In this document: positions 12,945-45,106 of the stretch, one piece after another
Position numbering within the stretch: position 1 is the stretch's first letter
How the letters are laid out: each line of letters begins with the position of its first letter
Assembly: GCA_040757775.1 (NCBI GenBank)
Contig: JBFLWQ010000015.1
Coordinates: 1 to 64,000 of the forward strand
DNA length: 64,000 bases
Direction of reading: 5' to 3'
Source: Thermodesulfobacteriota bacterium
Lineage (GTDB): Bacteria; Desulfobacterota; UBA8473
The notes under the pieces: model-generated
What the model was told of the DNA's origin: nothing
Database searches by the model: none
The model's input: the letters and a program-made list of their open reading frames with translations, nothing else
Made by a program: the position numbers and the translations under genes

Positions 12945-14063
12945 TTAAACCATGTGATGGTGCCTGTTTGGGGAAGAGTTGGAGTTGGAGGAAACCGCTG
13001 ACTTTGTGGGGAAGGAAACACGAAATGTGGAGCCTTCTCTTGGATGAGAGGAAAAGGTTATCTGTCCACCGAGTTCGTCGACTATTTTTTTGGTTACCAG
13101 CAATCCCAGACCGGTACCGTAGCGTTCCTTGGTGGATAAGATCTCGGTGAATACATAATTTTTCCATTCCTCGGGTAGTCCCGGGCCGTTGTCAGAGACC
13201 TCGAAGATCGCTATCGGTCCCTTGTGGTCGGTTCTGATTACTACCCGATGTTCTCGCCGGTTCAGGTCGAACTTACAGGCTTCCAGGGCATTGTGGACGA
13301 GATTGCTTATAATTGTATGAAGGTCCTCAGAGTTAAGCGGTATATGACCCATCTGTGGATCAATATCTACATTTAGTTGAATTCTTTCCAGTGCAGCGGT
13401 TTCGTGAAAGAGATCAAAGACTTCCAGAACTACTTGATTCGGTTCGATAACACTAATCTTATGCTCCCGTTTTTTTGCGCAGTAGAGTATATCCTTCACC
13501 AGATTGGAAATTCGGGCTACGTTACGCTGCACGATGTCCCAGCCTTTTAAGGTTTCCCCATAGTCTCTATTCCTCAACCCCGAATTCACCACGTAAATTC
13601 CCCCATCCAGACCGGTCAGGATGTTCTTGATGCCATGAGCCATTGTTGCAACCGTATGCCCCATCATGGTTAACTCAGTTTGCAGGCGTTTTACCGGGGT
13701 TATGTTGGTGGACATCTCCATTACCGCAACAATTGTCCCCTGCTCATTTCGTATAGGACTGGTGTAAACGATTACAAATGCCTCCTTACCTTCACGGGTG
13801 ATTACCTGCTCTTCGCTGGAATGGACCTGGCCGTCGGCGAATGTCTTAGCCACTGGACATTCAGGACAAGGGTCAGTTTTTCTTTTATAGACACTGTAGC
13901 AGAGTTCTCCTACACGGTCGCCAAAGTCCTCTCTAAAAAGCTCGTTGGTCTGGATAATGCGCAGTTCAGGATTTTGTACTGAGATATAGCAGGGGACTTT
14001 TTGGAAGAGTTGGCGATAATCGTGTTGGGTCGGCTCCCAACCGTCGATGCTGATTCGGTCCAC
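12945..14063 (-). CDS. PAS-domain sensor histidine kinase
   Basis: A 372-residue soluble kinase with no membrane segment. An N-terminal PAS domain (about 15-125) holds a cysteine pair in DPCPECPVAKTF. The HisKA-type helix has the phosphoacceptor His143 in MAHGIKN, and the HATPase domain shows the N box (LVHNALEA), G1 box (DNGPGLP) and G2 box (GTGLGLLVTKK). It starts at GTG 14063, preceded by GAGGAG. The PAS Cys motif and the AHGIKN...GG(I/M)YVVNSG region are shared with the kinase at 31989-34244, so the two are paralogues. It is the last gene of the - strand operon from the sigma54 activator, and probably phosphorylates the response regulator just upstream. Ligand or redox signal unknown. Confidence 0.85.
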   Translation of the reverse strand: MDRISIDGWEPTQHDYRQLFQKVPCYISVQNPELRIIQTNELFREDFGDRVGELCYSVYKRKTDPCPECPVAKTFADGQVHSSEEQVITREGKEAFVIVYTSPIRNEQGTIVAVMEMSTNITPVKRLQTELTMMGHTVATMAHGIKNILTGLDGGIYVVNSGLRNRDYGETLKGWDIVQRNVARISNLVKDILYCAKKREHKISVIEPNQVVLEVFDLFHETAALERIQLNVDIDPQMGHIPLNSEDLHTIISNLVHNALEACKFDLNRREHRVVIRTDHKGPIAIFEVSDNGPGLPEEWKNYVFTEILSTKERYGTGLGLLVTKKIVDELGGQITFSSHPREGSTFRVSFPTKSAVSSNSNSSPNRHHHMV

Positions 14064-14093
14064 GTTCTCTCCTCACCCAAATTTGTTGAAGTT

Positions 14094-14468
14094 TTATTTA
14101 ACGCAAGCTTCAACCTTACTCAGTAGGTCTTCGGTAGAGAATGGTTTCTCGACAAACTCCTGGGGCTTTGGTAGTCCGCCGCGTTCGCGGGCAAAAAAAT
14201 CTTTATACGCAGTAACGCCAGAAAGAATAATCACAGGAATATCACTGTATATTTCGCTCTTTTTCAGGTTGCGATAGAATCCCACGCCGCTCTGGTTTGG
14301 CATTATGATGTCCAGGATGACTACGTTGGGACCAAATTCCTTGACTTTGCGAAACGCATCCTCTCCATCCTCCGCCATCTCTGTTTTGTAACCGTTATTG
14401 CTTAGCAGAGAATTTAGATATGTCCTTACATCTTCTTCATCATCCACAATCAAAACTTTTTTTGCCAT
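14094..14468 (-). CDS. Single-domain response regulator (DivK/CheY-like)
   Basis: A 124-residue receiver domain without output domain: acidic pocket DDEED, phosphoacceptor Asp53 in LDIIMP, conserved Thr/Ser position in ILSGV, and Lys in FVEKPFS. I chose ATG 14468 because of the strong GGAGGGGGAAAA RBS and the canonical MAKKVLIVDD start; an upstream extension to 14555 would run through an inverted repeat. It closely resembles the regulator at 22553-22942. It probably relays phosphate from the adjacent kinase; output by protein interaction is inferred from the absence of a DNA-binding domain. Confidence 0.85.
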   Translation of the reverse strand: MAKKVLIVDDEEDVRTYLNSLLSNNGYKTEMAEDGEDAFRKVKEFGPNVVILDIIMPNQSGVGFYRNLKKSEIYSDIPVIILSGVTAYKDFFARERGGLPKPQEFVEKPFSTEDLLSKVEACVK

Positions 14469-14498
14469 TTTTCCCCCTCCTTTTTCCCCTGAAAGGTT

Positions 14499-14578
14499 GA
14501 TGACTTTGTAAAAAGTCCATCTGCCCGCCTCTGGCAAATTACTTTGCCATCCCAATTTTGACTTTTTACAAGTCCATC
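14499..14578. repeat. 80-bp nested inverted repeat between response regulator and HEAT gene
   Basis: Outer arms 14499-14517 and 14560-14578 are complementary with one slipped base (the shared core is ACTTNGTAAAAAGTC). A perfect inner hairpin, TGGCAAA-TTAC-TTTGCCA, sits at 14532-14549. It lies inside the - strand operon, so it is probably transcribed and could fold as an mRNA cruciform. A related core CTTTTTACAAG occurs at 35977-35987. It is either a small mobile-repeat remnant or an RNA stability/attenuation element. Confidence 0.6.
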
Positions 14579-14583
14579 AGGAT

Positions 14584-15213
14584 TTATAGTGGACAATTTG
14601 TTTGTCTTCCAGAACTCCTGATCCTTGCCAATGCTTCCCGTGCCTTCTCTTTTACTTCTGGTGGCTGGCTATTGTCTTCAGCTATTTTCTCCAGAGCAAT
14701 CGTCACATCCTTGTTGTCTGTGCTACTTATCAGTCCCAGAGACCTTGTGGCTGAGATACGTACGTCAATCTCGTTATCGGTTAAACAGGTGATGAGAGGA
14801 CTGCATGCGCCTCTTGCCCCGACCCCGATTTCTCCCAGAACCCAGGCCACACTAGCTCGAACATACCAAACAGAATCGGATAGGGCTGCTGTAAGGGCTG
14901 TTACCGCCGGAGCTGCCTTCGACCCTAACTCGCCGATGGTAAAAGCTACATACTCTCTGACATCCTCGTGTTCATCCTTAAGCATTGGTACAATCTTCTC
15001 TATAATTATATCCGATTCTAATCTAATATCCCGTAAGCTCTGCAGTGCGGCCAAGCGGACAAACCAGACGCTGTCTTTCAAGGCATCAACCAAAGCATCA
15101 TAAACCACGGGGCTGCCGGCTCCAACATCTCTGAGAGTCCGGGCAGCGGCAAAGCGTATATGACAGTCGTCGTCTTTCATGTCGCGGATTAGCTGGGCTA
15201 TCGCCTTCTTCAT
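14584..15213 (-). CDS. HEAT-repeat protein
   Basis: A 209-residue protein built of about six HEAT/PBS-lyase-type repeats of some 31 residues, with recurring patterns such as DxxxxVRxxAAxALGEIG (e.g. DSVWFVRLAALQSLRDI and DSVWYVRASVAWVLGEIG). No enzyme motif or signal peptide. HEAT repeats give protein-protein interaction surfaces. It sits between the universal stress protein and the response regulator of a redox/signalling operon, so a scaffold role in that signalling chain is a reasonable inference. The start ATG 15213 has only a weak RBS. Confidence 0.8.
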   Translation of the reverse strand: MKKAIAQLIRDMKDDDCHIRFAAARTLRDVGAGSPVVYDALVDALKDSVWFVRLAALQSLRDIRLESDIIIEKIVPMLKDEHEDVREYVAFTIGELGSKAAPAVTALTAALSDSVWYVRASVAWVLGEIGVGARGACSPLITCLTDNEIDVRISATRSLGLISSTDNKDVTIALEKIAEDNSQPPEVKEKAREALARIRSSGRQTNCPL

Positions 15214-15250
15214 GAATATTGAGACCCTTTATCGACTGCCAGATAGCTGC

Positions 15251-15778
15251 TTAACCCTCTATGAGACTCCATTCCCCTTCCTTAATGCCCAATTGGTCCA
15301 CAATGTCAGCTGCTAATCTGTTGAGGTGGAAGGAGTTAGGCTTATCCGGGCCCACCATGACAACCGAAGTCCTGAAATTAGAAGCGAATCGCTCAATAAC
15401 CTGGCCTCCAAAGTCTGCGCCCCGATCAAGGTATCCCATTACAAGGAGGTCATACTCTCTCCGGCGGAGACAACGGGCCAGTTCAGCCCCTTCGTTGCCT
15501 TCACAGAGTCGAAAGCCGACCTTAACAAAATCTCCTAGCTTTGACTCATAGTATTCGCGGAGCTCCAACTCCTTTTTGACCTGAAATTCATCTGTTACCC
15601 GAACCACTTCTTGCTTTTTGCTATCTGCGTAAACTATCTCCCTGCGGAACCGGAAAGGTGACTCCAGCCAGTGAAATATGTTGAGTTGGATATCTTTCTT
15701 GCTGGCCAACCCAAAAGCGTAATCAAATGCCCAGTCACCCTGACGGGAGTAATGCGAACAAAGTCCAATTGCTTCCAT
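15251..15778 (-). CDS. Universal stress protein (UspA family)
   Basis: A 175-residue single Usp domain. The start MEAIGLCSHYSRQGDWAFDYA matches the first strand and helix of the fold. The region YDLLVMGYLDRGADFGGQVIERFASNFRTSVVMVGP corresponds to the nucleotide-binding segment, although the usual GxxGxxxxxxGS(T/V) is degenerate, so ATP binding is uncertain. An RBS-like AGAGGGG precedes ATG 15778. It is co-directional with the TmcB-like gene upstream (22-base gap). From memory, Tmc operons of Desulfovibrio also contain Usp, response regulator and kinase genes, which fits this context. Confidence 0.8.
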   Translation of the reverse strand: MEAIGLCSHYSRQGDWAFDYAFGLASKKDIQLNIFHWLESPFRFRREIVYADSKKQEVVRVTDEFQVKKELELREYYESKLGDFVKVGFRLCEGNEGAELARCLRRREYDLLVMGYLDRGADFGGQVIERFASNFRTSVVMVGPDKPNSFHLNRLAADIVDQLGIKEGEWSLIEG

Positions 15779-15800: not shown

Positions 15801-17234
15801 TTACTTTTTCTCATTCTTTTCTGGAATAACCAAAGCTTCTGCCACCAAGTCTAATATCTGTACTATCTTCATGTCAAGTTTATAATGCTTGATCAAGTCA
15901 CTCAGACCATCAACGCAGTTGTGACAACTAGTGCAGACGAGCTTGGCACCTGTCGCTATCAGTTGATCTGCCTTAATCTTTGCCACCTCCATCCTGAGGG
16001 GTTTATACTCAACCATCGACAGTGCCCCACCGCCGCCGGTACAGCAAAAGTTGTCCGACCTGTTAGGATACATCTCCCGAAAATCAGTACAGACCCGCTC
16101 CAATATCCAACGAGGTTCCTCGGTAAGGTCGCCGGAACGAGCCAGGTTACACGAATCATGATAGGTGACAGGCAGAGGATTCCGCGACGGGTCTACCTTT
16201 ATTAGCCCCCGATTTATATAACGAATCAAAGTAATCATAATGGACTCACTGGGAATATCCTGCTTATATTTGGCCCAGTTGTAGCCTTCCCAACGGCTAG
16301 ATCGGTATCCATGACCGCACTCAGAGATGACGATCCGTTTAACCTTTAGTCGCCTGGCTGCCTCGTAAAGGTTCTTGGCTATATAGCCACCCAGCTTGTC
16401 ATCACCGGAGAAAAGTCCAAAGTTAGTCTGGTCCCAGCCGAAGCTTGGCATGGTCCAGCTTTCTCCGGCTATATGGAATATCTTGCAAGCGTAGCCGATG
16501 GAGCGAGGATCGTACTTGATCTCACGAGGGTTAACGGTATACATGAAATCGCAATCTTCTTTATCTATTGAAATTTTGAAACTGGGGTCGTCTAATTCAG
16601 CCTGGACTTCCTCCTGCTGCCATTCAAGAGTTTCAATGTAATCCTCCTGTGAAACCCCCATCTGGTTGCCAGTTTCCCATGAGTCCTTATCCACTACGAA
16701 GACTCCCTCGGGCACAATCCCGAGTTCTGTAAGAAGCCCGCGGGTGAGTCGAACAAGGACTGCTGTATCCACGCCCATCGGGCAGTTGAGGGTGCAACGC
16801 CTGCAACCGGTACAGGTTCCAAAGACAATATTTTTGAGACGGTTCAGGTCTTCATCATTCTTTGGGGTTTTCGCATGTACCCACCAGGGGAAAACGCGGC
16901 CAGCCCAGTCAATATGCCTTTTAAAGATTTGTCTGATCTGGTCGGCCTTGTAAGCTGGAGTCATAGTTGGGTCGTGAGGCCGGGCTAACGCATAATGGCA
17001 TGAGTCGGAACACATGCCGCAATGCACACAACCTACCAATGAACTCACTGTCTGCCGACTCAGCCTGTTCTTCAGCATCTCCAGCAGGTTCTTTACATTG
17101 TCCCTGTTAGGGTCATAGACCTTTACTTTTCCTTCGACCACCGCAGGAGATTTTTGTTCTAAAGCCTTTTTCTGCTCTTTTAAATCCAGGGGTAAATTAA
17201 CTACATCGGAAATATTTATGGTTTTATCGCTCAA
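15801..17234 (-). CDS. TmcB/HdrD-like iron-sulfur electron-transfer protein
   Basis: A 477-residue protein. Two 4Fe-4S clusters are bound by CVHCGMCSDSCHYALARP and CTGCRRCTLNCPMG. Two CCG domains follow: one with CGHG and a degenerate cysteine pattern plus DSCNLARSG and FCCTGGGGAL, and a terminal CTSCHNC. These are the features of HdrD/DsrK/TmcB, which carry electrons between a membrane cytochrome b and a cytoplasmic partner. The gene is directly downstream of a TmcC-like membrane gene, as in Tmc complexes, but no cytochrome c or TmcD gene accompanies it. The donor/acceptor is unknown. The ATG 17234 follows the RBS AAAGGAGA. Confidence 0.85.
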   Translation of the reverse strand: MSDKTINISDVVNLPLDLKEQKKALEQKSPAVVEGKVKVYDPNRDNVKNLLEMLKNRLSRQTVSSLVGCVHCGMCSDSCHYALARPHDPTMTPAYKADQIRQIFKRHIDWAGRVFPWWVHAKTPKNDEDLNRLKNIVFGTCTGCRRCTLNCPMGVDTAVLVRLTRGLLTELGIVPEGVFVVDKDSWETGNQMGVSQEDYIETLEWQQEEVQAELDDPSFKISIDKEDCDFMYTVNPREIKYDPRSIGYACKIFHIAGESWTMPSFGWDQTNFGLFSGDDKLGGYIAKNLYEAARRLKVKRIVISECGHGYRSSRWEGYNWAKYKQDIPSESIMITLIRYINRGLIKVDPSRNPLPVTYHDSCNLARSGDLTEEPRWILERVCTDFREMYPNRSDNFCCTGGGGALSMVEYKPLRMEVAKIKADQLIATGAKLVCTSCHNCVDGLSDLIKHYKLDMKIVQILDLVAEALVIPEKNEKK

Positions 17235-17273: not shown

Positions 17274-17954
17274 TTATTCCATGCCGGCAGGTTTTTCTCC
17301 ACCCTTTTTACGTGGGAAGACACCTCGATGCCCCATTGTTTTACCAAGGAAATAGCGGGTAAAAGGATAATATAGGTAATGGGAAATCTTGGAAAAGGGC
17401 ACGTAAATCAAGAACAAAGTCGTCATGCCGAAAAAGAGTATCAAAGGCCACTCACTTATCTCATGCTGATTGGGCATGGCGAAAACCCCCGCAGCAAACC
17501 ATGCTGTCAACAACGCCACTGAGAAATAATCATCCGGTGTACTGATAAGACGCATCACAGGACTGGTGATCCGTCGGATGAACCTTATCAATCCCACTGC
17601 AAAGGCAGCACCCATAAAAAGCTGAAAAATACGCACAATAGGTTCTGCCTCAAAGAACTCCGGCCAGTAGGGAAGAATAAAGGTTGCGGTGATTGCCACG
17701 AGTACTCCAAGGTGGAAGATCACAAATTGTACGTAAAAACTCAGATTTTTCCGCGCGCTTTCCATTGCCCAGGGCATAGCAACATTCATCATGGAGTAGG
17801 CTGCCCCTACTCTTGGACTGCCAACAGGGTTAGTAACCTCTTTGCCTGCCTTGAATCTGAACATCCATATCAGCCGTATTGTGTAAACTGTGGCCATGAA
17901 TGCCAATGCCACAATCTGCACCTCATCCTCCAAAATCCGCAGAAATTCGCTCAT
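17274..17954 (-). CDS. TmcC-like membrane cytochrome b subunit
   Basis: A 226-residue integral membrane protein with about five hydrophobic segments, related to nitrate reductase gamma / TmcC / DsrM proteins. Candidate haem-b histidines lie in FVIFHLGV and FSKISHYLYYPFTRYF, the latter a family hallmark. It presumably anchors the TmcB-like protein and exchanges electrons with the quinone pool or periplasmic cytochromes. First structural gene after the sigma54 promoter at 18004-18019. An RBS (GGAGGAG) precedes the ATG. Confidence 0.82.
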   Translation of the reverse strand: MSEFLRILEDEVQIVALAFMATVYTIRLIWMFRFKAGKEVTNPVGSPRVGAAYSMMNVAMPWAMESARKNLSFYVQFVIFHLGVLVAITATFILPYWPEFFEAEPIVRIFQLFMGAAFAVGLIRFIRRITSPVMRLISTPDDYFSVALLTAWFAAGVFAMPNQHEISEWPLILFFGMTTLFLIYVPFSKISHYLYYPFTRYFLGKTMGHRGVFPRKKGGEKPAGME

Positions 17955-18003: not shown

Positions 18004-18019
18004 CGCAATTTCTATGCCA
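18004..18019 (-). promoter_or_regulatory. Sigma54 promoter upstream of the TmcC/B-like operon
   Basis: On the - strand the sequence reads TGGCATA-GAAA-TTGCG, with the invariant GG and GC separated by exactly ten bases, close to the consensus TGGCAC-N5-TTGC. The start of transcription should lie near 17993, about 40 bases before the ATG at 17954. A sigma54 activator gene lies immediately upstream on the same strand. Confidence 0.75.
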
Positions 18020-18109
18020 GAAATGGTCAAACGATGAAACCCTCTGTTTTCATAGATAAATTGCCATTTTTGGTTTTGGAAAAAGGGGGTAGACAACGGA
18101 AGGAAAGTA

Positions 18110-18243
18110 GCATAATGCAACTATCCAATTGGCAGGCGATAACTGTTTAGAAAAGGTAAACCTGTAACGATAGGAATAATGATGTATTGAATAAATGTAG
18201 CTAAAAATTATTAGTGTCGCATATTGCAACTCTATTATGCAAC
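18110..18243 (-). promoter_or_regulatory. Cluster of GTTGCAT-type upstream activator sites
   Basis: Three copies of a heptamer that reads GTTGCAT or GTTGCAA on the - strand occur at 18115-18121, 18224-18230 and 18237-18243; the first two extend to GTTGCA-N3-TGC. They lie about 95-225 bases upstream of the sigma54 promoter, the usual range for enhancer-binding proteins. The same heptamer recurs upstream of the second sigma54 promoter (43656-43679). The rest of 17955-18246 shows no gene. Confidence 0.6.
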
Positions 18244-18246
18244 ACC

Positions 18247-19629
18247 TTATACTAAGTTGCAATTGTCCATTCTTTTGAGTTTTCTCCACAAGGTACTTCT
18301 ATGGATACCTAGCTCTTCAGAAGCCTTGATCTTATTCCAATTATGTTTTTTTAGCGTAGATAGGATAGTATTGATCTCCACTTGATTAATCAAATCCAAG
18401 CTTTTTCCGACCTTCTCCAGTTTACCTTCAATCCCTATTACGTAGGAAGGCAAGTGTTCTTTTGATATAATATTCCCTTTGCACAGAATAAAGGAATGTT
18501 CTAGAATATTTTCCAACTCCCGGACATTGCCAGGATAATTATACTGCATTAGAATCTCTATGGCATCGGATGATAACCTTTCAATGTTTCGCTGGTCCCT
18601 TTGGTTAAACCTGGTTATGAAATAGTCCACAAGGAGGGGGATGTCCTCTGGTCTTTCTCGAAGGTTTGGAAGTTCCAGTTTAATAACGTTCAACCTGTAG
18701 TACAAATCCTGACGGAATTGTCCCTCCTTGACCAACTGTTCCAGATTACGGTTGGTGGCTGATATCACTCTCACATCTACTTTGACGGTGTTAGTACCAC
18801 CTAACGGTACAAACTCTTTATATTGCACAGCCCTTAGAAGCTTCACTTGAAGGGAAGGAGAAATATCACCTATTTCGTCGAGAAAGATAGTCCCTCCATT
18901 GGCCAATTGAAACCTCCCCAGTTTGTTCTTCTTAGCGTCCGTAAATGCCCCTTTCACATAACCGAAGAATTCGGACTCCAGGAGGGTTTCAGGAAGGGCG
19001 GCACAATTAACTTTTATAAGGGGTTTTTTCTGGCGAAGGCTTAAATTATGAACCGCGTTAGCAAAAAGCTCTTTTCCAGTGCCGCTTTCTCCTTGAATCA
19101 AAAGAGATGCATCAGTTCGGCTTATATCGGGGAGTATTTCGAAAATTTCCAGGATCCTCTTGTTCTTGGAAATAATCCCCTGAAATGAGTAGGCTGATTT
19201 AGGAGAATCAGAAAACCGGTATTTGGTAGGCATATCCCGGACAGCTATGATTCCTCCTGAGAAGGATCTTCCATGACTCTTGAGTATTGAGAAACGTATT
19301 GCAATGGGTATTGGCATCTCGTCCTTACGGATTATATCCGAGTAGTAATCAACGAAGCTCTCCCCATTATTGATCATATTTTGGACAGGGCATCCATCAT
19401 TGCAGTTATAAAGACGAAGGATTTCGTAACAGTGCTTTCCCAGTGCTTCTATCCTTGGAAATCCTGTAATCTCCTCAGCTCTTTTGTTGAAGTAAACAAT
19501 TCGAAACCCTGGGTCAATAATAAGGATAGCCTCACCTATATTCTCAAGAACAGAATCTCCGGATATTCCATTGAGAATATTCTTGTTAAAATTATCTTTG
19601 TCTCTAATATTATCCATAATGCATTCCAA
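18247..19629 (-). CDS. Sigma54-dependent transcriptional activator with PAS domain
   Basis: A 460-residue enhancer-binding protein with an N-terminal PAS domain (about 25-135) containing a CPVQNMINNGESF cysteine segment. The AAA+ domain has Walker A GESGTGKE, a GAFTDA variant of the GAFTGA sigma54-contact loop, Walker B GTIFLDEIGD and the R-finger region RFRQDLYYRL. The C-terminal Fis-type HTH contains ELGIHRSTLWRKLKR. TTG 19629 has a well-placed AGAGG; ATG 19617 is the alternative. It shares its architecture with the activator at 43692-45026. It likely binds the GTTGCAT sites just downstream and activates the redox operon. The PAS signal is unknown. Confidence 0.88.
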   Translation of the reverse strand: MECIMDNIRDKDNFNKNILNGISGDSVLENIGEAILIIDPGFRIVYFNKRAEEITGFPRIEALGKHCYEILRLYNCNDGCPVQNMINNGESFVDYYSDIIRKDEMPIPIAIRFSILKSHGRSFSGGIIAVRDMPTKYRFSDSPKSAYSFQGIISKNKRILEIFEILPDISRTDASLLIQGESGTGKELFANAVHNLSLRQKKPLIKVNCAALPETLLESEFFGYVKGAFTDAKKNKLGRFQLANGGTIFLDEIGDISPSLQVKLLRAVQYKEFVPLGGTNTVKVDVRVISATNRNLEQLVKEGQFRQDLYYRLNVIKLELPNLRERPEDIPLLVDYFITRFNQRDQRNIERLSSDAIEILMQYNYPGNVRELENILEHSFILCKGNIISKEHLPSYVIGIEGKLEKVGKSLDLINQVEINTILSTLKKHNWNKIKASEELGIHRSTLWRKLKRMDNCNLV

Positions 19630-19838
19630 CTCGCCTCTTGGTTAAGCTGCTTGTCAACTTTATGGGTTAAATTGCCAAAAACCCTTAAATTAAAACAAAA
19701 TAACATTTGAGAGAGAATATTTCAAGAAATTTATTTCCCCTATGTAATTGAAGGTAATGGATGAAGGCAGACCTGTTATTATATTACTATAGACTGGGAG
19801 AAGATTAAAAGGAGAAAAATAGAACAGGAAAAGAGAAA

Positions 19839-19871
19839 AGGTATTGACATTGCTTCAGATAGTGGTATTCT
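19839..19871 (+). promoter_or_regulatory. Promoter of the second cytochrome b/HdrD-like pair
   Basis: A TTGACA at 19844-19849 and TATTCT at 19866-19871 are separated by 16 bases, a good sigma70 match. The same DNA also contains GG-N10-GC (19840-19853) ending in TTGCT, a weaker sigma54-like pattern, so the sigma factor is uncertain. It lies 60-90 bases before ATG 19933. The remainder of the divergent intergenic region 19630-19932 shows no gene. Confidence 0.5.
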
Positions 19872-19932
19872 CAAAAACCATTTAGCAAATTTATAGGTCG
19901 TGCAGATCTATTTAATAACAGGAGGTGCAAGA

Positions 19933-28185: not shown

Positions 28186-29514
28186 TCAAACTTTTAGCTC
28201 CTCTGGAATCTCCATAACGTCCACCAGTATTTCACTAAAAAACTTAACATGCATCCCAAGCTTATAGTAGTTGACTATATCTTCAATACCGCTATGGCAG
28301 TTGTGACAGGGTGTGATGACTACCTCGGCACCTGTGGCCTTAAGTTGTTCTGCTTTGACCCTGTTACCCTCTACCCGATTTTTCTTCCAGGGCGGGCCGC
28401 AGTTTATGACACCCCCACCTGCACAGCAGCAGTAGTTGTGTTCATATCGAGGAGAAACATCCCTAAAATCCTCACAGGTAGCCCGCATGATATAACGGAG
28501 CATATCCCCCAGCCCCCTGCCTCTTATAATATTACACGGCTCCTGTATTGTAACGGGTTGTTCGAATTTTCTGGCTATTTTTATCTTTCCATCCCTGATC
28601 AGTTCATAGTAAAACTGAACAGCATGAATCAACGGCACTGGAGGCTCCTTCCATGCTAGCCACTTAGGACCATCATAGACAGCACCCCGAAATGCGTGAC
28701 CGCATTCACCCATCACAATCTTTTTTACTTTGAGTTTGAACGCTGCCTCAAAATGTTTTCTCTCAACCCGTGCCATGGTCTCAAAATCGCCTGAATACAT
28801 GGGCATATTGCTATTATCCCAACCGTCAAAGGAAGGCATTGTCCAATCCATACCCGCCACAGTCATAATTATCGAGATATTGCCCAGAAGTTGGGCAAGA
28901 AATTTCGGTTCCGGGCCTATAACCGAGTACATAATCTCTGCCCCCTCTTTATCTAGGGGGATGCGTGCGTTCTTTACCTCATCCTGAGCATCTTCCTCCT
29001 GCCACTGGAGGGTATCGATCCATTCATCCTGCTTGACCCACATCTGGTTCATAGTAACAGCATGGCTGTTGACCGTGTCCTGAAGATACTGTGGTACTAC
29101 ACCTAATAAGGCGCAGATACGACGCACCAGAAGAAGAAGATATGCCATGTCAATGCCGAATGGGCAGTACATGCTGCAACGCCGGCAGACATTGCACTCT
29201 GTGTGGGCTATCCTCGAACAGTTTTTAATAAATTCTCCATCTACCCTGCCCTTTCTCTTCACTATTTCCCAGAGGGTTTGCTTCACCTTACCCACAGGCG
29301 AAAAACGGGGGTCCTTGTCATGGGAGAGGTAAAAATGGCATGCTTCTGAACATAAGCCACAGTGAACGCAGGTCTGCATGTAGACCTTTAGGCGGGCAGC
29401 AGCCCCTTTAGTTAAAACTTTATTTATCGTATCTTCTATCTTCTTCGGGGTGAGTTTCTTTATAGTTTCGTCTAAGCCCGGATCTACGACAATTTCCTTT
29501 GCAGGCTCAGCCAT
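28186..29514 (-). CDS. tmcB: Electron-transfer complex Fe-S protein TmcB
   Basis: A 442-residue cytoplasmic-side protein with two 4Fe-4S motifs (CVHCGLCSEACHFYL and CNVCRRCSMYCPFG) and CCG modules including VMGECGHAF, EPCNIIRG, HNYCCCAGGG and CHNCHSG. The sequence around GECGHAFRGAVYDGPKWLAW and the run of three cysteines match what I know of TmcB. ATG 29514 is chosen because GGAGG stands at the right distance; TTG 29520 is poorer. It is paired with tmcC (27-base gap) and tmcD upstream, and is followed by an HmcA-like cytochrome instead of the usual small TmcA. Confidence 0.85.
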   Translation of the reverse strand: MAEPAKEIVVDPGLDETIKKLTPKKIEDTINKVLTKGAAARLKVYMQTCVHCGLCSEACHFYLSHDKDPRFSPVGKVKQTLWEIVKRKGRVDGEFIKNCSRIAHTECNVCRRCSMYCPFGIDMAYLLLLVRRICALLGVVPQYLQDTVNSHAVTMNQMWVKQDEWIDTLQWQEEDAQDEVKNARIPLDKEGAEIMYSVIGPEPKFLAQLLGNISIIMTVAGMDWTMPSFDGWDNSNMPMYSGDFETMARVERKHFEAAFKLKVKKIVMGECGHAFRGAVYDGPKWLAWKEPPVPLIHAVQFYYELIRDGKIKIARKFEQPVTIQEPCNIIRGRGLGDMLRYIMRATCEDFRDVSPRYEHNYCCCAGGGVINCGPPWKKNRVEGNRVKAEQLKATGAEVVITPCHNCHSGIEDIVNYYKLGMHVKFFSEILVDVMEIPEELKV

Positions 29515-29541
29515 AAGCAATCCTCCTGAAAATATTTATGC

Positions 29542-30189
29542 CTACCAATCTTTAGAGTTGCGCACCGCACCAAATTCGCTGCCCATATATGCTCGGGTAA
29601 AGACAAAATATAGCATATGGCTCAACCTTGTAAAAGGGATAACGATTAACATAAGTTCACCAGACAGAATATGAAGAATCAATATCGTTTTATAGGGGAG
29701 CCATTGGTGGTATGCCAGAAAGCCGGTCAGAAACGGCGCCAGAGCTATTATCAGCAAAGCATAATCAGATGCAAAGGTGACGAACCTAACCTCAGGGAGT
29801 ACTAATCTTCTGGCAAGGAAAAAAAACGCGGCAAGAATTACGATTACAGTCATTATATCAGCTGTCCCTTCAGGCAATGTCCACCAGCTAATTTTCCAGG
29901 ACTGGTACCAGAGAATGTTATGAGACAGGAGAAAAATGGGTGTTAAAACCAGACAGATATGAAAAGCGAAGGTTGTTACCGTCATCAAAGGCCGTCTTCT
30001 CATATTGGTACTGGCAAAGGGGATAACCCAGTGAATAATGGATCGCAGACCATACTTTAGACTCATATATGGATATATGACTTTTTCCTTCTTTGCCAGT
30101 TTATGCATGGAACACAGCCGATAAAGACTACCCCCAATGAAGACTATGAATGAAATCCATACCAATGGTCCGCTCACAAATTCATACAT
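29542..30189 (-). CDS. tmcC: Electron-transfer complex membrane anchor TmcC
   Basis: A 215-residue integral membrane protein with about five helices, of the NarI/TmcC family. Likely haem or quinone-site histidines are in FAFHICLVL, ILHILSGELM and TRLSHMLYFVFTRAY. It is shorter than NarI-type subunits of DsrM but matches TmcC in size. It would anchor TmcB and move electrons across the membrane from the periplasmic cytochrome. 62 bases separate it from tmcD upstream, with no clear promoter. Confidence 0.83.
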   Translation of the reverse strand: MYEFVSGPLVWISFIVFIGGSLYRLCSMHKLAKKEKVIYPYMSLKYGLRSIIHWVIPFASTNMRRRPLMTVTTFAFHICLVLTPIFLLSHNILWYQSWKISWWTLPEGTADIMTVIVILAAFFFLARRLVLPEVRFVTFASDYALLIIALAPFLTGFLAYHQWLPYKTILILHILSGELMLIVIPFTRLSHMLYFVFTRAYMGSEFGAVRNSKDW

Positions 30190-38303: not shown

Positions 38304-38321
38304 AAGTATTGCATCCTTAAG

Positions 38322-38606
38322 TCAAATAGTTTTCAGAAGATTGTTTAACTCCTCTGACATATGATGATCTGTAACGATCATCTCCAGTTCTTTTACCTCT
38401 TCTATCTCTTTAACTGCCTTTAGAATCTTGAAGGCCAGAGGAAAAACCAGTGGGCATACAGAAGAAGAGGGACGGAACTTGAAACTGACCTTACTTTCAT
38501 TCGTAATCATCAGGTCTTTGATCAGCCTCATGCTGATTACATCCATCCCCGTTTCGGCATCTATTACAGTCTTTAATCTCTCGATGACCTTATCCTTTAA
38601 GTCCAT
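38322..38606 (-). CDS. MIP18/DUF59-family metal-sulfur assembly protein
   Basis: A 94-residue protein of the DUF59 (SufT/PaaD-like) family: a short helix-strand start (KVIERLKTVIDAETGMDVISMRLI) and the segment VSFKFRPSSSVCPLVFPLAF with the conserved cysteine. These proteins help Fe-S cluster maturation. The gene overlaps the end of the upstream MinD-like gene by 17 bases, indicating close coupling. Confidence 0.82.
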   Translation of the reverse strand: MDLKDKVIERLKTVIDAETGMDVISMRLIKDLMITNESKVSFKFRPSSSVCPLVFPLAFKILKAVKEIEEVKELEMIVTDHHMSEELNNLLKTI

Positions 38607-39462
38607 CCTGAAGTTTAGCCTCTATCTTTTCCCACATCTTCTTAATTATCTCAGCAACAATTCCCGAATCATATTCCACTAACGCTTGACGCTCCACCAT
38701 TGCCTTGGTTACAACAGGGTCATAAGGGATCTCTCCCACCACTTCTATGTTCTTATCTTGGCAGTAATCCTCTATCTTCCGTGTATTTTCCGGGTTGATG
38801 TCGCACTTATTAACACAGACCATGGCGGGGACATTGAAATGTTTAGCTACATCCAATACCCTTTCCAGATCGTGGATTCCTGAAAGCGTGGGTTCAGTAA
38901 CTGCCAGAACCAGGGTTACACCAGTGAGGGCAGCAATGACAGGGCAACCTATACCAGGAGGGCCATCTATAATGATCAAATCCTTGTTTTCATCCTCGGC
39001 TATTAACCTAGCCTGCTGCCTTACCAGAGTAACCAGCTTCCCAGAGTTTTCTTCTGCGATCCCCAGCCTGGCGTGAACCATAGGGCCAAATCGCGTATCG
39101 GATATGAACCAGTACCCTGATAACTTCTCCCCCATTTTTATGGCACCAGTGGGGCAGGCATGCATACAGAGCCCGCACCCCTCACAGGAGATGGGGTCTC
39201 TCGTAAAATTATGGATAGCATCAAAACGGCAAACCTCCATGCAGATACCGCATTGATCACATTTGTCTTTATCCAAAGATGGGGCACGTCCTCCATAAAA
39301 CTCTTTTCCTCTTTTTATATGTGGAGTCAGGATCAAGTGTAGATCGGCGGCATCCACATCACCATCGGCCATAACGTGGTTTTGAGCCAGTGCGGCAAAT
39401 GCTGCTGTTATGGTGGTCTTTCCTGTCCCTCCTTTACCACTGATTACAGTCAGTTGCTTCAT
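38590..39462 (-). CDS. MinD-like ATPase with inserted 2x[4Fe-4S] ferredoxin domain (1)
   Basis: A 290-residue P-loop ATPase with deviant Walker A GKGGTGKTT at residues 9-17, followed near residues 63-113 by two ferredoxin motifs, CDQCGICMEVCRFDA and CEGCGLCMHACPTGA. Walker B-like IIDGPPGIGCPV. This is one of the paired MinD/ParA-ferredoxin fusions typical of ORP (orange protein) operons in anaerobes. The second copy is directly upstream and overlaps it. ATP-dependent handling of a metal cluster is the likely role; not established for this subfamily. Confidence 0.87.
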   Translation of the reverse strand: MKQLTVISGKGGTGKTTITAAFAALAQNHVMADGDVDAADLHLILTPHIKRGKEFYGGRAPSLDKDKCDQCGICMEVCRFDAIHNFTRDPISCEGCGLCMHACPTGAIKMGEKLSGYWFISDTRFGPMVHARLGIAEENSGKLVTLVRQQARLIAEDENKDLIIIDGPPGIGCPVIAALTGVTLVLAVTEPTLSGIHDLERVLDVAKHFNVPAMVCVNKCDINPENTRKIEDYCQDKNIEVVGEIPYDPVVTKAMVERQALVEYDSGIVAEIIKKMWEKIEAKLQDGLKG

Positions 39463-40303
39463 TCTCTCTTCTCCTGCCCTCTTTTTCTATCTCATAGTAA
39501 AGTTCTTGAAACCTTTTTTTGTTTTCAGGAAGCTCTTCTAGTAATGGAATGCCTCTGGAATATGCCTCCGCTATTCTTCTGTCCGCAGGAATTTCCAAAA
39601 GGATGGGAATCTTTTCTGTTTCGCAATACTGCCAGACCTTACGATCACCTATATCGGAGCAATTTATCAATAACCCTAAAGGGATGCCTAACTTCCTTAC
39701 CATTTCCACTGCTAATTTAAGATCATTTAACCCAAAAGGGGTAGGTTCGGTAACCAGAAGACAGAAATCGCTCCCCTTTACCGCTTGCACTACCGGACAT
39801 GAAGTGCCGGGTGAAGAGTCTATAATAACAGTCTTATGATTATTTATAAACCTCTTTTCTGTGCGGATCAGGGGGGGTGCCATCGGTTCTCCCACATTTA
39901 ATATGCCGTGAACAAACTCGATATTTCCAGCCTTTCCCTTTTCGATTATACCGATCTCTCTTTCCACCTCTTCTATGGCACCCACCGGACAAATATATGA
40001 ACACCCTCCGCAACCATGGCAGAGTTCAGGAAAAATGAGCACTTTCTGCTTTATAACTACAATGGCATTGAACTCACAGACCCGGACACACTCACCACAG
40101 TAAGTACATCTGGATTTGTCCACTTCAGGGACAGGAATACCTACGGAGATACTATCTTCTATTTGAGGTTTTAAGAAAAGATGTCCATTTGGTTCCTCCA
40201 CATCGCAGTCCATGTATTGGGCATCCTTTAATGAAAGGGCAAGATTGACAGCAACCGTGGTTTTCCCTGTTCCCCCTTTTCCACTGGCAATAGAAATTAT
40301 CAT
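39434..40303 (-). CDS. MinD-like ATPase with inserted 2x[4Fe-4S] ferredoxin domain (2)
   Basis: A 289-residue paralogue of the next gene. Walker A GKGGTGKTT near residue 7, ferredoxin motifs CTYCGECVRVCEFNA and CHGCGGCSYICPVGA, and Walker B-like IIDSSPGTSCPV. I chose ATG 40303, which places the P-loop at the N-terminus as in the family; the in-frame upstream part to 40384 shows no homology. It overlaps the next MinD gene by 29 bases. The two probably form a heterodimer. Confidence 0.87.
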   Translation of the reverse strand: MIISIASGKGGTGKTTVAVNLALSLKDAQYMDCDVEEPNGHLFLKPQIEDSISVGIPVPEVDKSRCTYCGECVRVCEFNAIVVIKQKVLIFPELCHGCGGCSYICPVGAIEEVEREIGIIEKGKAGNIEFVHGILNVGEPMAPPLIRTEKRFINNHKTVIIDSSPGTSCPVVQAVKGSDFCLLVTEPTPFGLNDLKLAVEMVRKLGIPLGLLINCSDIGDRKVWQYCETEKIPILLEIPADRRIAEAYSRGIPLLEELPENKKRFQELYYEIEKEGRRRENEATDCNQW

Positions 40304-40423
40304 AATGGGCAACCTCTGAGATAAGAGAGGGCAAGAGAGAAAGGAGGACCCCAGGGTAGGTAGGAAGTACCCTGGAAAATGCATCTGCTCTCTGACTTTT
40401 ACACTCTCTTGCCCCAGTTCTTT

Positions 40424-40654
40424 CTACTTTCTTACCATACTGGTGCCACATTTTGGACAGCTTATCTGGTTACATGGCGATCCTACGCGATGGGGGACTG
40501 TAGTGTTACAATTGGGGCAAATGCACTCTCCGCCGCGACCAGCGCCTGGCCTATTACCACCCATCCTTCCAGCGCCTCTACCACCCCTACCCATGCCTCT
40601 TCCTGTTCCTTGACCTCCCCCGCCGGGAGGCCCTGTTCCGTCTCCTCTGGGCAT
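40424..40654 (-). CDS. Small Gly/Arg-rich zinc-ribbon protein (DUF5320-like)
   Basis: A 76-residue protein. It starts MPRGDGTGPPGGGGQGTGRG, similar to the DUF5320 start seen at 41749, continues with GRGGRGAGRMGG repeats and ends with two CxxC-type pairs (CICPNCNTT and ISCPKCGTSM). ATG 40654 follows AAGGGGTGAG; GTG 40663 is possible. Such proteins are common companions of NifX/MinD clusters; function unknown. Confidence 0.72.
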   Translation of the reverse strand: MPRGDGTGPPGGGGQGTGRGMGRGGRGAGRMGGNRPGAGRGGECICPNCNTTVPHRVGSPCNQISCPKCGTSMVRK

Positions 40655-40680
40655 TTTTCTCACCCCTTCCTTTAATTATA

Positions 40681-40818
40681 GACTTTGAAAAACTCGCTTT
40701 CAGTCATTGCGAGGCGTGTGCATGCCGTGGCAATCTCTTTGATAATTAACACGTTATGAGATTGCCTCATAAGCCTTTGGCGGATTCGCAATGAGAAATT
40801 GGGCATTTTTCAAAGGTC
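40681..40818. repeat. 138-bp imperfect inverted repeat (REP/MITE-like)
   Basis: Arms run from 40681 (GACTTTGAAAAACTCG) and back from 40818 (reverse complement GACCTTTGAAAAATGC), continuing inward through CATTGCGA and GCAATCTC blocks to a centre near 40745. Inverted repeats built on CATTGCGA...GCAATCTC are a widespread type of bacterial palindromic element. It fills most of the 213-base gap 40655-40867 inside the operon and could affect mRNA processing. Confidence 0.7.
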
Positions 40819-40867
40819 TCAATTAGTGTCCATCAACAAATGAAACGAGGGAACTGATTATAATCGT

Positions 40868-41440
40868 CTAGCCCTTTTTCTTGAGGGCCTCTTTTACGTC
40901 CGAGATCCCTGTGGTTTGCTTTTTGTTAACAGGGTTTCCCCTTTCCTCCAGTTTATCTATCCTGTCCATGGCTTTTTCCAATTGAGATCTGAGTACCTGA
41001 GACTCCTCCTTCAAAACAGTAAGCTCATCAACCTTAGATGGCTGGCCTGGCCCCATTCCTCCACCACGACCCATGCCCATACCGAAGTGAGCGTCTACCG
41101 AGGGACCCGAAGCAAGGGGTCGCAATTTTCCGTTCTTATAGCCTTCTACTGCTTCTCTGACTTTTCCGGCAACTCCTGTAATTATACTTACACCGGCAGC
41201 CTGTAATGTGTTATATGCATTTGGTCCTGCATTCCCCGTAAGGACAAACTCTACCCCTTTATTGGCTACAAACTGGGCAGCCTGTATACCAGCCCCACCG
41301 GAAGCGCTAATGCTACTGTTCTCTATCGATTCAAATTGCATGGTATCCGGGTCAACAATAGTAAAGTACTGACACCGGCCAAAGCGGGGATCAACCTCGG
41401 CATCCAACCCTTTGCCGGTAGCACTAATACAGATTTTCAT
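40868..41440 (-). CDS. NifX/NifB-family cluster-binding protein with coiled-coil tail
   Basis: A 190-residue protein. The N-terminal ~110 residues are the dinitrogenase iron-molybdenum cofactor-binding fold (MKICISATGKGLDAEVDPRFGRC start, HFGMGMG at its end). A Gly/Met-rich linker follows, then a coiled coil (about 135-170, KEESQVLRSQLEKAMDRIDK), suggesting oligomerisation. The short C-terminal end TGISDVKEALKKKG resembles the end of the Mrp protein at 42115 ([14 protein letters not shown]), a possible shared docking tail. Confidence 0.82.
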   Translation of the reverse strand: MKICISATGKGLDAEVDPRFGRCQYFTIVDPDTMQFESIENSSISASGGAGIQAAQFVANKGVEFVLTGNAGPNAYNTLQAAGVSIITGVAGKVREAVEGYKNGKLRPLASGPSVDAHFGMGMGRGGGMGPGQPSKVDELTVLKEESQVLRSQLEKAMDRIDKLEERGNPVNKKQTTGISDVKEALKKKG

Positions 41441-41482
41441 TTAATTCACTCCCTTCCAATGAGATAGGTTAGTTGGGTGAAT

Positions 41483-41749
41483 TTACCACCCAAATCTTCT
41501 ACCTCTACCCATACCTCTTCCCATACCAAAGCCTCTACCCGTACCTCTTCCCATGCCAAAGCCACCGTAAGGATAAGCCTGATATGGAGGATATTGATAG
41601 TTTCCGTATGGGTATCCTGCAAATGGTGCTCCGTAGTGATATCCCATATAGGGGTCTCTCCTTCCCGCAAAGTTGGGGTTACAAAATCCCCTCCCTCCCC
41701 CGGTCATTGGACCGAGTCCTCTTGGCCCTGTTCCATCAAATCCTGGCAT
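41483..41749 (-). CDS. DUF5320-type Gly/Tyr/Arg-rich small protein
   Basis: An 88-residue low-complexity protein. MPGFDGTGPRGLGPMTGGGR is the characteristic start of DUF5320. The middle is rich in Tyr/Pro (YPYGNYQYPPYQAYPYGG) and the end in GRG/MGR repeats. ATG 41749 has the RBS AAAGGAGGTG. It sits between two NifX-like genes. Function unknown; a structural or RNA/metal-binding role is only speculation. Confidence 0.72.
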   Translation of the reverse strand: MPGFDGTGPRGLGPMTGGGRGFCNPNFAGRRDPYMGYHYGAPFAGYPYGNYQYPPYQAYPYGGFGMGRGTGRGFGMGRGMGRGRRFGW

Positions 41750-41764
41750 ACGTTTCACCTCCTT

Positions 41765-42094
41765 TTAGTGATCACATATATTAGCCCCGGTCACTAATCT
41801 GTCATTAAGGAAATCCTCAATTACATTATCTATCAAACCTGAAGCCCCTGTGATAACAATAATCCCTTTTTCGGCAAACAACCCTTGTGCCCTTCCACCC
41901 ATACCACCGGCAATGATGCAATTTACCCCCTTTTCTGCTAAAAATACCGGCAAAAAGCCAGGCTCATGACCAGGGTTATCTATCAAATTCCTGGTTATTA
42001 CCTTTCCGTCCTCTACCTTGGCAATGGTATAGGATCTGCAATGGCCAAAATGCTGGGAAACCATGTTGCCATCAGTAGCAACAGCTATCTTCAT
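41765..42094 (-). CDS. NifX-like (dinitrogenase iron-molybdenum cofactor-binding fold) protein
   Basis: A 109-residue single-domain protein: MKIAVATDGNMVSQHFGHC start with the conserved QHFG(H/R)C loop, and CIIAGGMGGRAQGLFAEKGI. This fold binds Fe-Mo or Mo-Cu-S clusters; ORP, which binds a Mo-Cu-S cluster in Desulfovibrio, belongs to it. In this operon it or the protein at 43091 is the best ORP candidate. It is followed 15 bases later by the DUF5320 gene. Confidence 0.85.
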   Translation of the reverse strand: MKIAVATDGNMVSQHFGHCRSYTIAKVEDGKVITRNLIDNPGHEPGFLPVFLAEKGVNCIIAGGMGGRAQGLFAEKGIIVITGASGLIDNVIEDFLNDRLVTGANICDH

Positions 42095-42114
42095 TGTTTT
42101 ATCCCCCTTTATTA

Positions 42115-43074
42115 TTAATGTTTTTTACCCTTCAACATCTCCTTCACCTTAGATATACCTGTAGCTCCCTCCTTTATTAATGCGGATTTTGCTAAGGAAC
42201 CATTAACAAACCTCTCACATTTCTCACCAATCTCTCTAAAGGCTTCGGTTGCCTCTGAGTCTGGAACGTTCTCCACAAAGGGTATTCCCCTGTCAGATTT
42301 TTGAACGATGTCCGGATCAAATAATATCCTTCCAAGAAATGGAACCCGAAGTTCTGAAGCTGCCTTCTCTCCCCCCCCTATCTTGAAGAGATCGATAGCT
42401 TTTCCGCAATGAGGGCAGGAGAACCCGCTCATATTCTCAACAATTCCTACCACGGGGATTTTCAGCATCCGGCTGAAAGTTACCGCTTTCCTGGAATCAA
42501 GGAGGGCCACGTCCTGAGGGGTGGTTACGATAATCGAACCATCCACATTATTGATCAACTGGGCAATGCTCAAGGGTTCATCACCTGTTCCGGGCGGAAG
42601 GTCAACTATCAGGTAATCGAGATCACCCCATGAGACTTCGCTTAAGAACTGTTTAAATGCCCCATGCTTCAGAGGTCCCCGCCAGACGATAGGATTATCA
42701 GGGTCAGTAATGAGAAATGCCATACTAACTACCTTGAGATTTGGATTAAAAGAAACCGGTTTTATCCCATCAGGCGATCCCTCAAGCCTTTTCATGTCCA
42801 GACCCAACATCTTAGGTATATTAGGACCGTGTATATCTGCATCGAGTAGGCCAACCGCGAATCCATTTCCGGCCAGAGTCACTGCCAGGTTAGCAGCTAC
42901 TGTACTTTTGCCTACTCCCCCCTTTCCACTCATCACCATAAATTTATGCTTTATCTTTCCAATCGTTTCCCTGAGTAATGCCTCGGTATGAGCATCCTTC
43001 TCCTCTTGTGAGCACGTGCCCTCTTGACCGCAGGTTTCACAGGTAGAGTCTCTATCACATTTCTCCTGACTCAT
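42115..43074 (-). CDS. mrp: Mrp/NBP35-type Fe-S carrier ATPase
   Basis: A 319-residue P-loop ATPase with deviant Walker [10 protein letters not shown] (about residue 51), Walker B-like [12 protein letters not shown], and the CPHCG cluster pair ([13 protein letters not shown]) near residue 210. An N-terminal Cys cluster, [16 protein letters not shown], is added as in NBP35-type proteins. The family binds and transfers 4Fe-4S clusters. The tail after residue 295 ends [14 protein letters not shown]. It has 16 bases to the upstream NifX-like gene. Confidence 0.88.
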
Positions 43075-43090
43075 AATAACCTAGCCCCCT

Positions 43091-43492
43091 TCATTTTTTC
43101 TTATCATTCATTGCCCATGGTGGCCCAAAGAATTTACCCTTTCTTCCTCTGAAACTCCTGCCTCCCCTTCTACATATCCTGAGGCCAGGCTCTAATTCCC
43201 CATTTAAAAACAGACTTAGTGCCTCGCTGGCCTCACCAGCAATCTCTGGAATAACCGATATCCCCAGATTTCTAAGCTGATTATGGCAGAACCTGTCTAT
43301 ACCCCCGCAGATAAGGGTATCAATCCTCAGAGAAGCAAACTGGTCAAACCATCGAGGAAGCGCCAATCCGGTCATAGATATCGTTTTTTGAGTTGTAACT
43401 TTGCCATCTTCTATTGTTAATATCCATATCTCCTGGGAAAAACCAAAACGGGGAGATATCCAATTGCCAAAAAGAGGTATGGCAACATTCAT
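43091..43492 (-). CDS. NifX-like protein, first gene of the ORP-like operon
   Basis: A 133-residue protein of the same cofactor-binding fold: MNVAIPLFGNWISPRFGFSQ with the PRFG loop, ICGGIDRFCHNQLRNLGI, and a basic Gly/Arg tail (RICRRGGRSFRGRKGK). The RBS GGAGGTGG precedes the ATG at 43492. The sigma54 promoter lies immediately upstream, giving a leader of only about 14 bases. Confidence 0.82.
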   Translation of the reverse strand: MNVAIPLFGNWISPRFGFSQEIWILTIEDGKVTTQKTISMTGLALPRWFDQFASLRIDTLICGGIDRFCHNQLRNLGISVIPEIAGEASEALSLFLNGELEPGLRICRRGGRSFRGRKGKFFGPPWAMNDKKK

Positions 43493-43516: not shown

Positions 43517-43532
43517 AGCAAATAGTATGCCA
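43517..43532 (-). promoter_or_regulatory. Sigma54 promoter of the ORP-like operon
   Basis: The - strand reads TGGCATA-CTAT-TTGCT, with GG and GC ten bases apart; a near-consensus sigma54 site. Expected transcription start is near 43506. The first seven bases are identical to the promoter at 18004-18019. Confidence 0.8.
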
Positions 43533-43655
43533 TGGACATTTTTTGGGGGGGGATATTTAAGAAAGATTATTGATTAAAACAAGTTGAGGGAATTGATGGG
43601 TTATGAGCAAGGGAGGGAAGGGGCGATATCTAGATGCAATAATACATCGTATCGC

Positions 43656-43679
43656 ATGCAACAGTTGCATAAATGCAAC
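43656..43679 (-). promoter_or_regulatory. GTTGCAT-type upstream activator sites for the ORP-like operon
   Basis: Two overlapping inverted repeats: TGCAAC-A-GTTGCA (43657-43669) and GTTGCA-TAAA-TGCAAC (43664-43679). They contain three GTTGCAT/ATGCAAC heptamers within 24 bases and lie about 125-160 bases upstream of the sigma54 promoter, immediately downstream of the activator gene. Confidence 0.68.
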
Positions 43680-43691
43680 CACAACCGGTAT

Positions 43692-45026
43692 TTAAATGCC
43701 GTACTTCTTCATCTTTCTCCATAGAGTGGATCGGTCAATCTTTAATTCCTTTGCTGTTGCTACTCTATTCCCATGGTACTTATCAAGAATTCCCCTGATT
43801 AACTCTGCCTCAGCATCCTTTAAGGGATGACTCATGGCTGGTTTTCGTGGAACTTCTCTCTCTCTAAAACCCCTGGTAAGCTCCGGCGGCAGGTGTTTTA
43901 TCTCAATGATTCTGTCCTTACAAAGGACAAAGGCATGTTCGATGATATTTTCCAATTCCCTTATGTTGCCGGGAAAGTCATACCCCATCAGAAATTCCAT
44001 CACAGTATCAGAAACCCCAACGATAATCTTCCCTTTCCTTAGATTGAACTTGTGAATAAAATTGTCTATAAGAAGGGGGATATCTTCCCTCCGTTTAGCC
44101 AGAGGAGGGAGTTCAATCTTTACCACATTAAGCCGATAAAAGAGATCCTCCCTGAAGCTTCCGGTTTTAACTAAATCAGAGAGGCTTTTGTTAGTGGCGG
44201 TTATTGCCCTTACATTAGCCTTAACTGGGCTTATTCCCCCCAGGGATTCATATTCTTTTTCCTGTAAGACTCGAAGGAGTTTTATCTGAAGAGCAGGAGA
44301 CATATCCCCTATCTCGTCCAGAAAGATGGTGCCTCCTTCTGCCAGGGCAAATCGGCCCGGTTTATTTTTTTTGGCATCGGTAAATGCCCCTTTAACATAA
44401 CCAAAGAGTTCAGATTCTAAGAGTGTGTCAGGGAGTGCTCCACAGTTTACCTTTATATAAGGGTGGTTTTTTCGATGACTCAGGTTATGGATAGCCCTGG
44501 CAAAAAGTTCTTTACCAGAACCGCTTGGCCCCTGGATCAGGACTGTTGAATCACTTTCGGCAATATCCGGGAGTATATGGAATATCTCCTGAATTTGATG
44601 ATTTTTGCTGATAATGTCCTCAAGGGAATACTGTTTGGATATCTCCTTTTTTAATTCTTCTTCTACCGAGATATCCCTGAAGGTCTCTACTGCCCCAATG
44701 ACCTCTCCTTTCTCCTCTTTGAGGACAGCCGTGTTGATACTGACCGGCACTTCTTTTCCCTCTTTGTTCAGGATGTTGACGGGTAAATTGATAATAGCTT
44801 TGCCTGTCCTCAGGGTCTGTTTGAGGGCACAGTGAGTCTGGCAGATATTGGTTCTGAAAATATTGAAACAATACTGCCCGATAGCTTCATTTCTTGTAAA
44901 TCCTGTAATATCCTCTGCCGCTCGATTAAAGGAGGTAATTTGGTCCTGATCATTTATGGTGAATACCCCATCAGCTATACTATCCAGTATAATATTTAAA
45001 AAGGAAGCCCCCTTATCTGCCTTCAT
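43692..45026 (-). CDS. Sigma54-dependent transcriptional activator with PAS domain
   Basis: A 444-residue enhancer-binding protein: PAS domain (about 10-120) with a CFNIFRTNICQTHCAL cysteine segment, AAA+ domain with Walker A GPSGSGKE, GAFTDA in place of GAFTGA, Walker B GTIFLDEIGD, and a Fis-type HTH with ELKIDRSTLWRKMKK at the C-terminus. ATG 45026 is favoured over TTG 45062; neither has a clear RBS. It is a paralogue of the activator at 18247-19629, with nearly the same recognition helix, which fits their shared GTTGCAT sites. It probably controls the ORP-like operon starting at 43492. Confidence 0.88.
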   Translation of the reverse strand: MKADKGASFLNIILDSIADGVFTINDQDQITSFNRAAEDITGFTRNEAIGQYCFNIFRTNICQTHCALKQTLRTGKAIINLPVNILNKEGKEVPVSINTAVLKEEKGEVIGAVETFRDISVEEELKKEISKQYSLEDIISKNHQIQEIFHILPDIAESDSTVLIQGPSGSGKELFARAIHNLSHRKNHPYIKVNCGALPDTLLESELFGYVKGAFTDAKKNKPGRFALAEGGTIFLDEIGDMSPALQIKLLRVLQEKEYESLGGISPVKANVRAITATNKSLSDLVKTGSFREDLFYRLNVVKIELPPLAKRREDIPLLIDNFIHKFNLRKGKIIVGVSDTVMEFLMGYDFPGNIRELENIIEHAFVLCKDRIIEIKHLPPELTRGFREREVPRKPAMSHPLKDAEAELIRGILDKYHGNRVATAKELKIDRSTLWRKMKKYGI

Positions 45027-45106
45027 GGTTAATATTATAAACTCAATCGGTAGATTTATCAAGGTTTGAGTGAAAGTTTTTCGGCAAACACCCGTTCTCT
45101 TTTTCG

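Follow-up and report, generated by a model that had tools for sequence, protein, structure and literature searches.

Two duplicated, probably insulated sigma54 regulons at a Tmc/Hmc-like and an orange-protein-type operon, with a shared predicted half-site and a one-base difference in dyad spacing

In the window (the whole stretch of 64,000 nucleotides that we analysed, from a Thermodesulfobacteriota genome), a Tmc/Hmc-like membrane redox operon (tmc) and an operon of the orange-protein type (orp, ORP) each stand behind a sigma54 promoter, GTTGCAT words and the gene of a PAS-AAA-Fis activator. The original prediction took this common layout as a sign of cross-regulation that links a membrane redox complex to the orange-protein system. 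We asked whether the two loci share their regulation or only the origin of their regulatory parts. The features of both loci are collected in Table 1.

Table 1. Features of the tmc and orp loci, in window coordinates
Feature	Position	Strand	Basis or remark
TmcR (name coined here), PAS - AAA+ (GAFTDA) - Fis HTH sigma54 activator	18247..19629	minus	Pfam PAS_9, Sigma54_activat, HTH_8
Extra half-site GTTGCAT, upstream of tmc dyad 1	18237..18243	minus	invariant in 5/5 tmc loci of family f1
Predicted TmcR operator dyad 1, GTTGCA-ATA-TGCGAC, N3, 15 bp	18216..18230	minus	sequence and relatives
Predicted TmcR operator dyad 2, GTTGCA-TTA-TGCTAC, N3, 15 bp	18107..18121	minus	~110 bp from dyad 1
tmc sigma54 promoter, TGGCATAGAAATTGC / TGGCATAGAAATTGCG	18019-18005 / 18004..18019	minus	TGGC and TTGC elements conserved in orthologues
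TmcC/HmcE-like membrane subunit	17274..17954	minus	NCBIfam HmcE 54 bits (cut-off 275), TmcC 45 (cut-off 240)
HmcF/TmcB-like iron-sulfur (CCG) subunit	15801..17234	minus	NCBIfam HmcF 328 bits (cut-off 750), TmcB 317 (735)
Rest of likely tmc operon: USP-like, HEAT-repeat, receiver-like, PAS-histidine-kinase-like genes	12945..15778	minus	ORFs
OrpR-like PAS - AAA+ (GAFTDA) - Fis HTH sigma54 activator	43692..45062	minus	Pfam domains and tree
Predicted OrpR-like operator dyad, GTTGCA-TTTA-TGCAAC, N4, 16 bp, perfect	43664..43679	minus	perfect N4 in 6/6 loci of family f1
Extra orp half-site GTTGCAT	43656..43662	minus	17 bp from first; kept in 4/6 loci of family f1
Degenerate second orp N4 dyad, GATGTA-TTAT-TGCATC	43633..43648	minus	31 bp from first; by eye from alignment
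orp sigma54 promoter, TGGCATACTATTTGC / TGGCATACTATTTGCT	43532-43518 / 43517..43532	minus	sequence and alignment of relatives
ORP-type operon	38590..43492	minus	ORFs, Pfam, NCBIfam; gene set kept in relatives
NifX-like, ORP operon	43091-43492	minus	
Mrp/NBP35 ATPase, ORP operon	42115-43074	minus	
NifX-like, ORP operon	41765-42094 and 40868-41440	minus	
Two ferredoxin-MinD ATPase-like ORFs, ORP operon	39434-40384 and 38590-39462	minus	named from sequence alone

Every element of the described layout was found at or near its predicted position. The GTTGCAT words of the tmc locus lie at 18243-18237 and 18121-18115, both on the minus strand and 96-224 bases upstream of the -24 element. Those of the orp locus lie at 43679-43673 (minus), 43664-43670 (plus) and 43662-43656 (minus), about 124-147 bases upstream rather than the 125-160 first given. 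The heptamer is real, but the true unit is an inverted repeat, and the GTTGCAT words are, as we read the sequence, the half-sites (arms) of predicted dyads with a spacer of three bases (N3) at tmc and four (N4) at orp. We compared both intergenic regions with 5000 dinucleotide-preserving shuffles. These held 0.06 GTTGCAT words on average; the two words observed at tmc were reached in 6 of the 5000 shuffles and the three observed at orp in none. Dyads with at most one mismatch (Tmc) or with no mismatch (ORP) were likewise absent from all 5000, and both the words and the dyads therefore exceed chance expectation.

The two activators proved as similar as had been claimed. Their recognition helices read IHRSTLWRKLK in TmcR and IDRSTLWRKMK in the OrpR-like protein, and each gene ends directly before its GTTGCAT sites. 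Among roughly 20 activators that we read in the window's genome, the R-S-T-L-W-R-K helix is unique to these two, which share 49% identity and are reciprocal best matches within the genome. Both have the domains of sigma54 enhancer-binding proteins (Pfam PF00158 at 1.6e-68 and 2.5e-67, HTH_8 at about 1e-11 in both), and upstream sites plus a -24/-12 promoter, as expected for this class, are present at both loci. They also share a C-x8-C-x3-C motif in the PAS domain and a GAFTDA loop that matches that of DVU2106, an activator of the OrpR type.

To place the pair among its relatives, we searched 99 genomes and obtained 57 activators with the cysteine motif, the window's two included. TmcR and the OrpR-like activator belong to one family (Cys-rich PAS domain, GAFTDA loop), most members of which adjoin NifX/Mrp/MinD (orange-protein-type) operons. 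The OrpR-like activator adjoins such an operon, as do most of its relatives in the tree; the neighbour of the TmcR clade is a Tmc/Hmc-like operon instead. The Tmc activators form one clade (support 100/99) with an adjacent TmcC-TmcB pair in every case. A wider search found Tmc-type activators in 8 of the 395 genomes of the phylum, confined to two families.

We scanned for operators with spacers of 0-8 bases behind each activator at 56 loci, one of them an extra Tmc-type locus from the 395-genome search. Strong dyads had the N3 spacer in 16 of the 56 loci and the N4 spacer in 27, whereas shuffled sequences reached the threshold at a rate of about 0.5% for each spacer. We chose the scoring weights manually after an initial inspection of the sites, so the dependable result is the contrast among spacers and not the absolute rate. 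The remaining spacers reached the threshold in 0 to 5 loci. The spacer tracks the tree: it requires 6 changes, compared with a mean of 12.6 and a minimum of 8 in 1000 shuffled labellings. Directly behind the activator gene, all 8 Tmc-type loci (families f1 and f21) have N3, whereas each of the 6 ORP loci in the window's own family (f1) has N4. In genomes with at least two called operators, paralogues differ in spacer in 9 of 10 cases and in half-site in 1 of 10, although f1 and f21 go back to the same duplication, which leaves few independent lineages with differing spacers. At ORP-type operons of several other genomes the spacer is N3, and it thus marks the paralogue and clade, not the type of target. 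By eye, no single helix residue explained the choice between N3 and N4.

The same 56 loci were used to compare helices with half-sites. All 7 loci whose first helix residue is S or T have a GTTTCA-like half-site with T at the fourth position of each arm, compared with 1 of 38 others. All four independent switches of helix and half-site go in the same direction, which is too few for significance (sign test, p 0.125). Because the half-site co-varies with the helix, the protein encoded next door probably reads the dyad. We observed a possible code of the Fis helix, in which S/T goes with GTTTCA and H/D/N with GTTGCA. Where the second helix position is K or P, the half-site is sometimes ATTGCA, and where F or Y replaces W, it is often GTCGCA. 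In a blind test of the helix-to-half-site rule, the predicted GTTTCA dyad was absent at a third, more distant paralogue of three genomes (G001, G003 and G004), and we treat the rule as a lead only. The broader proposal, that paralogues with the same helix and half-site are kept apart by one-base spacing and that S/T to GTTTCA and H/D/N to GTTGCA form a readable code, is tentative, and we would put it somewhat below even odds.

The best matches of the tmc proteins are HmcE/TmcC and HmcF/TmcB, but all Tmc/Hmc subunit scores lie under the NCBIfam equivalog cut-offs; the order of the first tmc-operon genes is kept in relatives. For the rest of that operon, the USP (weak) and HEAT assignments come from Pfam, and the receiver and kinase were named from sequence alone. 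A second, diverged TmcC/TmcB-like pair lies on the minus strand at 28186-30189 and is 26% and 36% identical to the first pair. Three loci of genus mates (L122, L140 and L142) have two further genes between that of the Tmc activator and a DsrM/DsrK-like pair, one for a third PAS activator (C-x8-C-x4-C) and one for a partial AAA+ protein about 360 amino acids long. Both extra proteins are absent from the window (19629-19900), where the DsrMK-like pair is thus without its former neighbouring regulator.

We consider it most probable, at roughly 0.68, that tmc and orp are two duplicated, local and self-contained regulons with a common half-site, a 1-bp difference in dyad spacing and probable insulation from each other. 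The two loci are paralogous copies of one regulatory module, in which a one-component PAS-AAA-Fis activator of the OrpR kind would bind inverted-repeat operators directly behind its own gene, loop to one sigma54 promoter and drive the neighbouring operon. One copy would serve the ORP (orange protein/Mrp) operon and the other the Tmc/Hmc-like membrane redox operon. The half-site GTTGCA would be kept in both because the recognition helices are nearly identical. The one extra spacer base (15 bp with N3, 16 bp with N4) turns and shifts one half-site relative to the other, which probably limits cross-binding and separates the two regulons. A cluster ligated by the cysteines of the PAS domain is the probable means by which each activator senses redox state. 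For OrpR, a 2021 paper reportedly described a redox-sensing iron-sulfur cluster.

The cross-regulation originally suggested, in which either activator binds both regions, fits less well with these observations, and we regard it as unlikely. The common half-site, the near-identical helices and the close relationship of the activators speak in its favour, and dimers of the Fis type might tolerate 1 bp of spacer. However, the spacers differ by one base, each side keeps its own throughout the family, and none of the 56 loci has both an N3 and an N4 dyad; the tmc promoter lacks an N4 dyad, and the orp promoter an N3 dyad. The loci are also separable, as two genomes of the family (G005 and G006, each about 85% complete) have the ORP activator and no match to TmcR. 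The shared layout needs no cross-talk, as common descent accounts for it.

A genome scan for dyads near sigma54 promoters had been proposed as a check. We carried it out in five of the family's genomes and allowed no more than one mismatch. Each dyad type was recovered beside its own activator, at tmc or orp, and an N3 site appeared on contig C25 of the window's genome (G000); all other matches but the few that lacked a fetched locus were inspected singly and lay inside ORFs without a sigma54 promoter nearby. The C25 site (29781-29990; L040, L058) comprises the N3 dyads ATTGCATATTTCAAC and GTTGCATACTGCAAC, one perfect and the second with two mismatches 92 bp away, and the sigma54 site TGGCATTATTATTGCT, which lies 188 bp past the stop codon of the C25 activator gene. 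On one side of the C25 site is this receiver-type activator, on the other an operon whose first gene is USP-like, followed further on by permease-looking and kinase-looking genes, named from sequence alone. Judged by spacing, the Tmc activator would more probably act on this promoter than on that of orp. That the Tmc activator does cross-talk with C25, and not with ORP, seems quite doubtful to us: the two N3 dyads and the sigma54 site stand at distances similar to those at tmc, but the receiver-type activator next door, with its partly similar helix DRVSLWRHSK, is the simpler binder, and a close orthologue of C25 is absent from the genus mates.

The near-identical sigma54 promoter was the other element of the predicted link. 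TGGCATA-N4-TTGC is indeed present at both loci. The genome nevertheless contains 7 copies of its 11 fixed bases, at least 2 of them within genes, and orthologues carry TGGCGCG, TGGCACA, TGGCATG or TGGCACG in place of TGGCATA. For these reasons, the match appears to be only sigma54 consensus and carries little weight. One further sigma54-like sequence, TGGCATAAGTATTGC at 38298-38312 on the plus strand, has no evident plus-strand gene downstream and is probably a chance occurrence. Common TTGCA words and GG-GC promoters could in principle make the whole resemblance a matter of chance or generic sigma54 sequence, but this is extremely improbable and is refuted for the dyads, which are near zero in shuffles, conserved and clade-specific.

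Taken as two insulated copies of one module, the tmc and orp loci would replace a vague guess of cross-regulation with a specific rule for how duplicated sigma54 activators avoid cross-talk. This reading predicts that a Tmc/Hmc-like membrane redox operon is controlled by an activator of the orange-protein redox family. The set of 56 operator loci offers a natural series for the study of spacing and recognition in Fis-type activators.

We compared both loci with systems described in sulfate reducers. The activators resemble OrpR/DVU2106 of Desulfovibrio vulgaris Hildenborough, a single-component sigma54 activator with a GAFTDA loop and an ORP gene cluster. The DVU2106 binding sites are palindromes located upstream of the sigma54 promoters of orp, with IHF in between (PMC3897727; PMC4641369). 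The palindromes of D. vulgaris lie about 90-130 bp upstream of the promoter; the comparison is one of layout and not of site sequence, as we found no binding-site sequence for OrpR, DVU2106 or Tmc regulation in the accessible literature text. The D. vulgaris system coregulates two divergent operons and requires IHF, whereas here the activator precedes a single operon. In contrast to the D. vulgaris ORP, Mrp and its NifX-like domain are separate genes here: the Mrp protein scores 364 bits against the MrpORP fusion cut-off of 450, and the separate NifX-like gene scores 110 bits. DVU3142 is a predicted activator of the membrane redox operon ohc, which encodes an octaheme cytochrome complex (PMC4641369, Kazakov 2015), and is likewise a one-component sigma54 activator that adjoins the operon of a membrane redox complex. 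It has a GAFTGA loop and is divergent from its target, whereas TmcR and the OrpR-like activator have GAFTDA; unlike ohc, the window's tmc operon has no identified cytochrome gene. The membrane subunit and CCG iron-sulfur subunit are related to HmcE/TmcC and HmcF/TmcB of the Hmc and Tmc complexes of sulfate reducers, from which they differ by their scores under the equivalog cut-offs. This kind of system is already known; in the literature that we searched we met no earlier case in which an activator of the OrpR family adjoins a Tmc/Hmc-like operon, which makes this a new member.
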